Shown: in pieces, positions 15,676 to 49,171 of the stretch
Layout: each line of letters opens with the position of its first letter
How positions within the stretch are numbered: the stretch's first letter is position 1
Origin: an uncultured bacterium
GTDB lineage: Bacteria > Cyanobacteriota > Vampirovibrionia > Gastranaerophilales > Gastranaerophilaceae
Length of the DNA stretch: 64,000 nt
NCBI GenBank assembly: GCA_949290355.1
Contig: CASERN010000011.1
Span: 434,001 to 498,000, forward strand
Reading direction: 5' to 3'
Notes under the pieces: model-generated
Database searches by the model: none
The model's input: only the letters and a program-made list of their open reading frames with translations
Told to the model about the DNA's origin: nothing
Made by a program: the position numbers and the translations under genes

Positions 15676-15774
15676 ATGAAAAGATTTAACGTACTGCAGA
15701 ATTTCGGGGGGGGGCGATTTAAGGCTTATTACAAGGATTTTCGGGGGTTGCGAAAGCAAAAAAATCTGTTATAA
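15676..15774 (+). CDS. Leader reading frame interrupted at a G9 tract
   Basis: A 32-codon reading frame starts with ATG eight bases after AAAGGAG and directly downstream of a near-consensus promoter, so it should be translated. After ten codons it enters a run of nine G, and in this frame it stops at 15772. If the tract had eight (or eleven) G, the frame would run without any stop through the next 96 bases. It would then fuse in frame to the ATG at 15812 of the pilin-like gene, adding about 45 residues ahead of the prepilin motif. I interpret it as the true 5' end of the pilin gene in an 'off' state, or as a homopolymer sequencing error. Confidence 0.5.
   Translation: MKRFNVLQNFGGGRFKAYYKDFRGLRKQKNLL
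15706..15714 (+). repeat. Poly-G tract (G9)
   Basis: Nine consecutive G lie in a strongly AT-rich region. Together with the ten-base tract at 49064-49073, it is one of the only two G/C runs longer than six that I found in the window. Both lie at the 5' ends of pilin-like genes. Such tracts are classic slipped-strand mutation sites. Confidence 0.85.
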
Positions 15775-15811
15775 TGATAATGTATATCATCACAATTATA
15801 GCGGAGAGTTT

Positions 15812-16495
15812 ATGAAAAAAATATTCGGTTTCACGTTAGCAGAGGTATTGATTACTTTAGGAATTATAGGAGTTGTAGCGGCATTAACTATACCTGCTTT
15901 GATGGTAAAACATCAAAAGAAAGTATTTGCTACAAAAGTAAAGCAGACATATAGTATAGTTTCAAACGCATTGTTAAGTTCAGTTGCTGAAAATGGAGCT
16001 CCAAATACTTGGGCTTATTATGAACTAGACTCATCTGATCCGGATTATTTTAATAAGGCTTCCAGTCATATGGAAGAAATGGTAGTTAAATATTTTAAGC
16101 CGTATTTTAAAATTATTGGAGAAGGAAAAAATGCGCCAGGATATTATTTAATTTTAAGCAATGGAGTAACTTTATATTTTCAACCTGATGTATATGCAAC
16201 ATCAAATGGTACATATAAACAGAGTTCTGTTTTTATATTAGGCAGCACAGTCGGAAATCGTGATTATTTCGTTTCTGCAGATAGGAATTATTCAAGAACT
16301 GATTTTTTGATGCAAATCAGTGCAACAGAGGGTAATGCAAAAGTTCAAATGTATATGACAGATTATACCTTAGATGAAATTAAAAACCATTCGAAATACG
16401 GCTGTAATAAAAATATATCTCCAAACTATAGGATTGGCTGTGGGGCAATGATTCAGAAAAATAATTGGGAAATCCCCGATGATTATCCTTGGTAA
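15812..16495 (+). CDS. Type IV pilin-like (prepilin N-terminal motif) protein
   Basis: The 227-residue form starts with a short basic leader, then G/FTLAEVLITLGIIGVVAALTIPAL. This is the prepilin peptidase site followed by the hydrophobic helix with Glu at +5. It should be cleaved and N-methylated, then incorporated into a pilus or pseudopilus. The C-terminal half contains a Cys-containing region ending NNWEIPDDYPW, seen from memory in many paralogous pseudopilins of Gastranaerophilales. GGAG precedes the ATG at 15812, so this start may work alone. A longer version starting at 15676 is possible if the G-tract length changes. The downstream genes include dprA, so a role in DNA uptake is conceivable but unproven. 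Confidence 0.88.
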   Translation: MKKIFGFTLAEVLITLGIIGVVAALTIPALMVKHQKKVFATKVKQTYSIVSNALLSSVAENGAPNTWAYYELDSSDPDYFNKASSHMEEMVVKYFKPYFKIIGEGKNAPGYYLILSNGVTLYFQPDVYATSNGTYKQSSVFILGSTVGNRDYFVSADRNYSRTDFLMQISATEGNAKVQMYMTDYTLDEIKNHSKYGCNKNISPNYRIGCGAMIQKNNWEIPDDYPW

Positions 16496-47323: not shown

Positions 47324-48343
47324 ATGAAAATTTTATCAGGATTAACATTAAACGAAATAGAACAAATTACCAATCAACTTAAGGCTTCAAAATTCAGAGC
47401 CAGACAAATTCATAATTGGATCTATTTAAAATCTGTAAAAAGTATTGATGAAATGACCGATTTGTCATTAAGCTTTAGAGAAGATTTGAAAAAAGTTGCA
47501 GTGGTAACAGATACAAAAATAAAAATAAAACAAGAAAGCAGTGATGGCACATTAAAATATTTATTGGAATATCCTGATGGACAGTGTGTGGAAACTGTTT
47601 TGATGCGTTTTGATAATCGAGCTAATTTAACTGCTTGTGTAAGCTCTCAGGTTGGCTGTGCCGTTAATTGCTCCTTTTGTGCGACAGGGAAACGCGGTTT
47701 TATAAGGAATCTTACTTATAAAGAAATAATAGAACAGGTATTGACAATTCAAAGAGATACTGGACTTAAGGTTACAAATGTCGTGTTCATGGGCCAGGGT
47801 GAACCGCTTTTAAATCTTGATAATGTTTTAAAAGCAATGGAAATATTTAATGAAAATTTTCAAATAGGTGCAAGACGTTTGACAGTTTCCACTTCAGGAA
47901 TAATTCCAGGGATAAATCGTCTGGCAGAAATTGATATGCAATCTACTTTGGCACTTTCTCTGCACGCTCCAAATCATGATATTCGTAAAAAATTGATGCA
48001 GATTGAAAATAAATATCCAATGCCGGAGTTGAAGAAGGCATTGAAAAATTATATAGAAAAAACCGGAAGACGAATTACTATAGAATATTTGCTTATAAGA
48101 GATTTAAATGATACTCTTCAAAGTGCAAAAGAGCTTGTTGCATATTTGCATGATTTGAAATGTAATATCAATTTAATCCCTTATAATTCAACAGAAAAAA
48201 ATGATTATCAAAAACCTTCTAACAATTCCATAATGCGTTTTAAATCATTACTGGAACAATCAGGCAAAAAAGTAACTGTCCGTTTAGAACGCGGAGCAGA
48301 TATTGATGCCGCTTGCGGACAGTTAAGTGGTAAAGTTAATTAA
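47324..48343 (+). CDS. rlmN: Dual-specificity RNA methyltransferase RlmN
   Basis: This 339-residue radical SAM enzyme methylates A2503 of 23S rRNA and A37 of some tRNAs at C2. The radical SAM cluster is C112-x3-C116-x2-C119 (GCAVNCSFCATGKRGF). MGQGEPLLNLDNV, STSGIIPGI and LALSLHAPN are typical. The C-terminal catalytic Cys (DAACGQLSG, near residue 331) is present, as is the N-terminal helical domain. AGGAT precedes the ATG. The gene is convergent with the second pilin-like gene, overlapping it by four bases. Confidence 0.95.
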   Translation: MKILSGLTLNEIEQITNQLKASKFRARQIHNWIYLKSVKSIDEMTDLSLSFREDLKKVAVVTDTKIKIKQESSDGTLKYLLEYPDGQCVETVLMRFDNRANLTACVSSQVGCAVNCSFCATGKRGFIRNLTYKEIIEQVLTIQRDTGLKVTNVVFMGQGEPLLNLDNVLKAMEIFNENFQIGARRLTVSTSGIIPGINRLAEIDMQSTLALSLHAPNHDIRKKLMQIENKYPMPELKKALKNYIEKTGRRITIEYLLIRDLNDTLQSAKELVAYLHDLKCNINLIPYNSTEKNDYQKPSNNSIMRFKSLLEQSGKKVTVRLERGADIDAACGQLSGKVN

Positions 48344-49107
48344 TATTTTATTTGCCAGTTGTCATAATCTATAACTCTAGAAGAACAGCTTAATTCTGGA
48401 GTTAATATGCTTCCTTCATTGTTTGGGCATGCTTTATATATTTCATCTCGCAGTGCTGCTTCTGTTTCAGTATTCCAATTCCCACCTCCATTTGCAGCTG
48501 CAAACATATCAATAAAGTTTTTCCCTGTGCCCAAATAACCACTATCGCAAAGCACAAAACCAAATATATCATAACCTACTTTGTTGGGACCTTTATCGCC
48601 GTTACTATCTATATATACCCATCCAGCAAGAGTATCACAAGCTTTATAATGGGTATTAAATGGACCATCTACTCGAGCCATTATATTGAATTCTACAGCA
48701 GAACCATCAGCCATATATGCGTAAAAAGCTTGTTCTTGACTATCAAATTTTGGATCCTTAACATTGACAATATTAAAATATTTATAAATAGTACTATTTA
48801 TAGGACAATATGTGTCGTCAACAGTATTTTGACAGTTAATGAAATATTGTGTATCACTTAATTTTTCAACTCCATCATCACTCATCATTTTTTTTAATCC
48901 GTTGGTAACAACATTATAGCTCTTTTTCAGTTGGTTTGCGTAAACCATTTTTTGATATTTTGCCATTAATGATGGTATTGTGATTGCTGCAACGACCCCT
49001 ATTATCCCAAGAGTAATTAAAACCTCTGCTAAGGTAAACGCCTTAGAACAGTAAGTGTTTTGCGGGGGGGGGGCAGTCTCAAAGCTTCTTGTGTAAACAT
49101 TTTTCAA
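48340..49107 (-). CDS. Type IV pilin-like protein whose start is separated by a C10 tract
   Basis: The frame encodes about 230 residues of pilin-like protein starting at SKAFTLAEVLITLGIIGVVAAITIPSLMAKYQ (prepilin motif, Ala instead of Gly at the cleavage site). A C-terminal globular domain ends in IDYDNWQIKY. The only in-frame start upstream is TTG at 49107, but it directly abuts AAAGGAGG and so cannot be a normal start. The properly spaced ATG (49100, seven bases after GGAGG) is in another frame. It reaches a stop after 23 codons unless the ten-C tract at 49064-49073 becomes 11 or 8 long. The gene therefore looks switched off in this sequence, or the tract length is misread. Confidence 0.75.
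   Translation of the reverse strand: MKNVYTRSFETAPPPQNTYCSKAFTLAEVLITLGIIGVVAAITIPSLMAKYQKMVYANQLKKSYNVVTNGLKKMMSDDGVEKLSDTQYFINCQNTVDDTYCPINSTIYKYFNIVNVKDPKFDSQEQAFYAYMADGSAVEFNIMARVDGPFNTHYKACDTLAGWVYIDSNGDKGPNKVGYDIFGFVLCDSGYLGTGKNFIDMFAAANGGGNWNTETEAALRDEIYKACPNNEGSILTPELSCSSRVIDYDNWQIKY
49064..49073 (-). repeat. Poly-C tract (C10 on the coding strand)
   Basis: Ten consecutive C on the coding strand lie between the best start codon (49100) and the prepilin motif of the second pilin-like gene. It is the longest G/C homopolymer I found in the window and a likely slipped-strand mutation site. Confidence 0.88.
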
Positions 49108-49142
49108 CCTCCTTTTTTTTATTATTTACTATTTCTTTTTAA

Positions 49143-49171
49143 TTGTCAACTGTGTAATTTTGTAATATTAT
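49143..49171 (+). promoter_or_regulatory. dtd promoter predicted to give a leaderless mRNA
   Basis: TTGTCA (49143-49148), exactly 17 bases and TATTAT (49166-49171), then seven bases to the dtd ATG. There is no room for a Shine-Dalgarno sequence. Confidence 0.65.

Follow-up and report, generated by a model that had tools for sequence, protein, structure and literature searches.

A C10 tract in the leader of a pilin-like gene of an uncultured gut bacterium is a probable default-OFF switch belonging to a family-wide system

Between positions 49020 and 49125 of the window, read on the minus strand, a pilin-like gene is separated from its only good start codon by a run of ten C residues that leaves the two out of frame. 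The window is the whole stretch of DNA that was analysed (64,000 nucleotides, C11:434001-498000), and it belongs to a genome of 1.85 Mb in 14 contigs with relatives among the Gastranaerophilales/Melainabacteria. The anatomy observed at this locus agrees with an earlier description made from the nucleotide letters alone (hereafter the sequence-only reading), and comprises, together with that of a second pilin-like gene of the window, the following features.

49121 to 49149, minus strand: promoter-like site TTGACA-17-AATAAT, 11/12 consensus positions, also kept in the syntenic locus of a related genome (G041)
49108 to 49113, minus strand: Shine-Dalgarno (SD) sequence AGGAGG, read directly, conserved in G041
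49105 to 49107, minus strand: in-frame TTG, implausible as a start, abutting GGAGG with a spacing of 0
49100 to 49098, minus strand: ATG of the gene, 7 nt after AGGAGG, the sole good start
49074 to 49100, minus strand: leader part 1, the ATG and the codons after it, 27 nt (MFTQEALRL), of a class common among genus members
49064 to 49073, minus strand: C10 tract, the proposed switch, in frame at 11 or 8 and out of frame at 9 or 10
49039 to 49063, minus strand: leader part 2, 25 nt, open in the pilin frame (QNTYCSKA), without a start codon
49029 to 49100, minus strand: out-of-frame product of the C10 form, 23 codons, stop TAG at 49031-49029
48340 to 49038, minus strand: mature pilin-like protein, 232 amino acids, N-terminus FTLAEVLITLG, long N-terminal helix and then strands
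15676 to 15705, plus strand: leader part 1 of the G9 gene, beginning with its ATG (MKRFNVLQNF)
15706 to 15714, plus strand: G9 tract, following the same 2 mod 3 rule as C10, out of frame at present
15812 to 16495, plus strand: pilin-like gene downstream of G9, with its own SD and ATG (15812)

The F of FTLAEV (TTT) begins at 49038, 25 nt past the C10 tract, and the leader arithmetic is 27+10+25 = 62 = 2 mod 3; the ATG at 49100 is therefore out of frame with FTLAEVLITLG, as the sequence-only reading had claimed for the only well-placed start. The same sum bears out its proposal that one more C (11) or two fewer (8) would restore the frame, and it was also right to discard the TTG that touches the ribosome site, a codon situated some 7 nt away from where transcription is predicted to begin, given the promoter-like site at 49149-49121. 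No in-frame start exists between C10 and the F. The ribosome that sets out from the ATG would make the short product MFTQEALRLPPPRKTLTVLRRLP. G or C runs of at least 8 are expected about 0.07 times in the window and are found only at C10 and G9, and the length class shared by these two genes, which had been noted before, holds on recalculation. Past the G9 tract, however, a second SD with ATG (15812) and a TATAAT are present, so that this tract is not obviously the only control of its gene.

The protein encoded behind C10 is pilin-like by motif and by model. It meets the prepilin criterion (G/A↓FTxxE with a hydrophobic helix), and in its AlphaFold model (mean pLDDT 84) an N-terminal helix of 53 residues leads into a domain that contains strands. 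Without its leader the gene product reaches 16.0 bits against a cut-off of 16.3 for TIGR02532 and stays under the cut-off of Pfam N_methyl, and the 15812 gene, with 18.9 bits, is above the TIGR02532 cut-off. Foldseek alone, run with the model against solved structures, returned nothing with E below 0.001; a second-look structural alignment placed pilins and pseudopilins on top with modest Z scores (FimA 5.5, rmsd 4.0, 134 aligned). The likeness to type IV pilins and pseudopilins thus consists of the FTLAEV motif, the long N-terminal helix and the occurrence in the genome of a prepilin peptidase (A24) gene (PF01478 at C11:510233-510625), whereas the C-terminal domain has no close structural match and the assignment of function goes no further than pilin-like. 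Prepilin peptidase is expected to cut at the A↓F site at the end of leader part 2 and to remove the leader, which is a prediction only.

The tract is not peculiar to this gene. The genome has 55 matches to the pilin N-terminus, and in 37 of these genes an open leader that follows an SD and ATG contains a run of 8-11 G or C residues, no farther than 125 nt upstream. This enrichment is observed family-wide: 108 of the 113 G8/C8 matches of the genome fall in the 37 leaders and three more in a 38th, truncated by the start of contig C4, so that leaders hold 111 and only two are unassigned. The tract is 10 long in 28 of the 37 leaders, 11 in four, 9 in three and 8 in two; among the 36 with a recognisable SD and ATG, 33 require a length of 2 mod 3, and the assembled tract puts 7 in frame and 29 out of frame. 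The leaders can be sorted into four classes, i.e., G-long (with an internal TATAAT and SD+ATG), G-short (ending VSGQAARLG), C-long and C-short, the last of which includes the window gene. An internal SD+ATG is present in 17 of the 37 leaders, in which the OFF state may be leaky. The G-long leaders (window 15715-15820; 17 leaders of the genome) contain an extended -10 TGTTATAAT, a -35-like TTGnnn and the internal SD+ATG, and a tract-independent transcript from them is therefore possible; in many of them an inverted repeat lies near GTGATnnnnnATCAC. One further pilin-like gene (L044, C7:34378) has an interrupted tract, CCCCTCCCCC, and its leader is now closed by a stop in the pilin frame; the switch seems to have been locked.

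The frame rule extends to the genus, in which 181 distinct tract-bearing loci were collected, 167 of them with an SD-preceded start picked regardless of frame. The needed length is 2 mod 3 in 153 of these 167, which is the outcome of the tabulation of lengths modulo 3 in related genomes that the sequence-only reading had proposed. Only 19 of the 167 are in frame as assembled. The tract is exactly 10 long at 148 of the 181 loci (82%), and the pilin frame is open from tract to motif in 180. Leader lengths vary on either side of the tract (21 and 43 distinct values), and 59 of the 73 distinct pairs of lengths before and after it obey 2 mod 3 (nominal binomial P 1e-16). Since leaders are duplicated, the number of truly independent cases is lower than the nominal one and this P is nominal only. 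In fact, the leaders belong to a few related families and are not all independent.

The distribution of stop codons indicates what the leaders keep. Of 133 G-leaders, 128 have a stop no more than 20 nt past the tract in the frame that length 10 uses, a number that drops to 47 +/- 5 when the codons are shuffled, and in the other wrong frame near stops are below expectation (34 vs 69). The window gene is an exception, as its length-10 frame continues 33 nt beyond the tract to the TAG at 49031-49029. A conserved leader peptide was ruled out: variable columns of the leaders are distributed over the codon positions as 156:164:168, i.e., without codon-position bias. What is kept is not the residues but an open frame and, in the frame of length 10, a stop immediately after the tract. 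Other lineages have other usual lengths. Where the modal length is 12 (two genomes), the near stop falls in the frame which that length uses, and in genus g18, with mode 9 and rule 1 mod 3 (ON = 10), both wrong frames are stopped early. The stop placement in mode-10, mode-12 and mode-9 lineages thus makes the usual length an early-terminating OFF state, in both directions.

Beside dtd, a C10 pilin-like gene is observed in 7 of 30 species, this one included, always out of frame and under the same rule. The G041 counterpart matches the window gene in side and strand and has a nearly identical promoter, SD, ATG, leader start and C10, and the mature proteins are 65% identical with a dN/dS of 0.25. 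Purifying selection of this strength on a gene whose consensus is out of frame in both genomes implies that the window gene is expressed at least sometimes; a pseudogene is ruled out by the dN/dS and the intact frames. Length alleles of both kinds are also observed at single loci, e.g., the orthologues of G004 and G042, which are 98% identical and have G10/OFF and G11/ON; in another genus, one pair has G11/OFF and G12/ON. These ON and OFF alleles were seen between species, not inside one population.

The reading that we favour, and hold to be probable, is that the C10 tract makes the gene a translational phase variation (contingency) locus with default OFF, one of about 37 in the genome that serve a pilin repertoire. 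Replication slippage would alter the length of the C or G tract between start codon and prepilin motif. At length 10, usual in the genus, the ribosome would be out of frame and terminate early (OFF), and at 11 or 8 the leader would be fused to the pilin (ON); the variable leader would then be cut off by prepilin peptidase and the mature pilin be identical whatever leader preceded it. Because the modal length is OFF, few tract-controlled pilin-like genes would be expressed per cell, and the outcome would be a stochastic, combinatorial surface repertoire. Slippage as the cause in living cells, reversibility, the effect on expression, the surface role and filament assembly are all inferred. Among the criteria for repeat-mediated phase variation, the locus meets those of a tract between start codon and gene body with length classes that set the frame, of ON and OFF length alleles at one locus (between species), and of a gene that stays intact and selected although its consensus allele is OFF. 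The criteria also include reversible switching at a measurable rate (PMC11868660), and here the reading is limited, since switching itself was not shown (no reads, RNA or protein, no mixed population). The earlier suggestion of selection for switching accordingly gains support from the genus-wide rule, but the reversible switching remains an inference and the G9 gene, one of its two examples, has a possible tract-independent start.

The main difficulty for switching is the constancy of the tract, as a freely slipping one might vary more than 82% at 10 and, in the C-short class of the window gene, all 21 scored tracts are C10 (19 of these 21 loci with a start need 2 mod 3). Loss of MutS as a source of tract instability is rejected, the gene being present in 31 of 32 genomes. 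In our reading the concentration at 10 reflects a mutational equilibrium whose position varies from lineage to lineage (9, 10 and 12), but fixed-length recoding, the chief rival, is still possible. Under such recoding the tract would stay at 10 and some pilin would be made by -1 ribosomal frameshifting or RNA polymerase slippage, without switching of the DNA. Besides the strongly fixed length, this would accommodate purifying selection acting on genes with out-of-frame consensus alleles, and a stop right behind the tract in the usual frame is typical for frameshift sites as well. The direction of the shift is not constant, however (-1 in g1 and g18, +1 in the mode-12 genera), and no conserved RNA structure was found behind the tract (mean fold z -0.10), so that the criterion for programmed ribosomal frameshifting (stimulatory RNA structure, constant direction) is not met. 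Moreover, a slippery heptamer needs a run of only 7 bases, but the scan, whose minimum was 7, met no tract of that length, and the constitutively in-frame alleles are not rare. We therefore consider recoding an unlikely explanation, though one to be kept in mind. Its broader form, in which well over 100 pilin-like genes of the genus are held at a low set level by length-fixed G10/C10 read-through, ribosomal or by polymerase slippage, is itself quite unlikely; if true, it would constitute a family-wide recoding system unlike known frameshift genes.

Two further explanations would take away the meaning of the tract altogether. Homopolymers are error-prone, the genomes are draft assemblies and 10 is one base short of in-frame, so that the true length could be 11 everywhere and the gene always in frame, an outcome that the sequence-only reading had named as fatal to its proposal. 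Assemblies of several sources nevertheless concur on 10 and do show 11 at 18 other genus loci, the modes 9 and 12 of other genera would require errors of opposite sign, and an error would not explain why the frame of length 10 meets a stop immediately after the tract; miscalling is hardly credible as the general cause. Alternatively, the tract leaders could be irrelevant because the pilins start elsewhere, or the loci could be silent cassettes that donate by recombination, as pilS does to pilE. The internal SD+ATG of many leaders of this genome, often with TATAAT (present in 47 of the 181 genus leaders), and the finding of similar pilins with different leaders point in this direction. Against it, the window gene and 161 of the 181 genus leaders are without an SD-preceded in-frame start past the tract, nearly all loci have an SD and ATG ahead of it, and a frame rule would not persist in an untranslated leader, which makes this idea very improbable.

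The contingency loci of Campylobacter jejuni are largely genes for surface structures, and the Opa proteins of Neisseria form a multigene surface family switched via leader-region repeats. The Opa genes differ from the system described here in their pentamer repeats (PMC5953494), in encoding outer-membrane proteins and in being fewer. Neisseria pilC1/pilC2, with a homopolymer in the signal-peptide region, are alike in that a pilus protein is turned on and off by frameshifts, which arise in a G run of the N-terminal part that is cleaved off (PMC5354566, PMC5953494). However, pilC is pilus-associated and present in one or two copies, whereas here dozens of prepilin-type genes have a modal length that is OFF. 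Up to 90 genes are switched per genome in Neisseria (PMC5953494), and C. jejuni NCTC11168 has 29 polyG/polyC contingency loci (PMC4965091), which resemble ours in having G/C runs of 7-12 inside reading frames but are separate genes, in contrast to a single protein family with shared leader cassettes. Lengths are also more tightly fixed here than in C. jejuni colonies, in which G8 to G12 were counted 257, 214, 431, 77 and 9 times (44% at G10; PMC4965091). Searches of an open-access library brought up no account of phase variation for Gastranaerophilales or Melainabacteria. What is new here is the lineage, the concentration of switches in a single pilin-like family, the sharing of leader cassettes, and a design that is OFF by default and has a stop placed past the tract.

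Homopolymer phase variation has been best studied in pathogens, and the present case concerns uncultured, presumably harmless gut relatives of cyanobacteria. With about two thirds of one genome's pilin-like genes having their own tract, at a usual length that is OFF, this is a large single-family system, and the phase-variation reading predicts that individual cells differ in the surface or pilus proteins they bear. Such variation would be relevant to the encounters of gut commensals with phages, immunity and attachment sites. Two difficulties of annotation are accounted for as well: most such genes would be given wrong starts or be called as frameshifted, and several contigs of this genome stop at leader repeats. 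Contigs C2, C4, C9, C11 and C13 (G000) have several ends within about 700 nt of a tract leader, and the assembly was probably broken by these repeats.

Conservation of the arrangement is observed well beyond this genome. The pattern G8-N65-95-FTLAE occurs in 27 of 33 genus genomes, in which the reversed control pattern had no match. Of 32 genomes, 18 have the C-short class, defined by C8 no more than 30 nt from FTLAE, and its control too had zero matches. The possibility conceded earlier, that other pilin-like genes never have such tracts, can thus be set aside, and a chance origin of the tracts is rejected by the run expectation together with the empty controls. Across the order, 59 of 286 genomes and 11 of 50 genera have the G8 pattern, with the reversed control again empty, and only one of these genomes lies outside the family of the genus. 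Nearly all named records that contain it are assigned to Candidatus Gastranaerophilales or Melainabacteria. A record labelled Fusobacterium sp. CAG:439 is probably mislabelled and corresponds to genus member G004; another, labelled Anaerolineales (L235, JALUDX010000050.1), fits the tract-plus-motif pattern by chance, contamination or transfer. A phage origin was rejected, as viral contigs gave no match. Some loci depart from the usual build: one leader of G004 (L166, contig C54) has two tandem G tracts, of which the outer has a pilin-frame stop, and four loci (L113, L114, L290 and L325) have a second FTLAEG motif ahead of the real FTLAEV, e.g., SAFTLAEGATHVVHFDNIRRAA. Finally, two loci of G001 (L104 and L247) encode nearly identical pilins (90-95%) behind different leaders, which suggests that leader and pilin parts have been exchanged.
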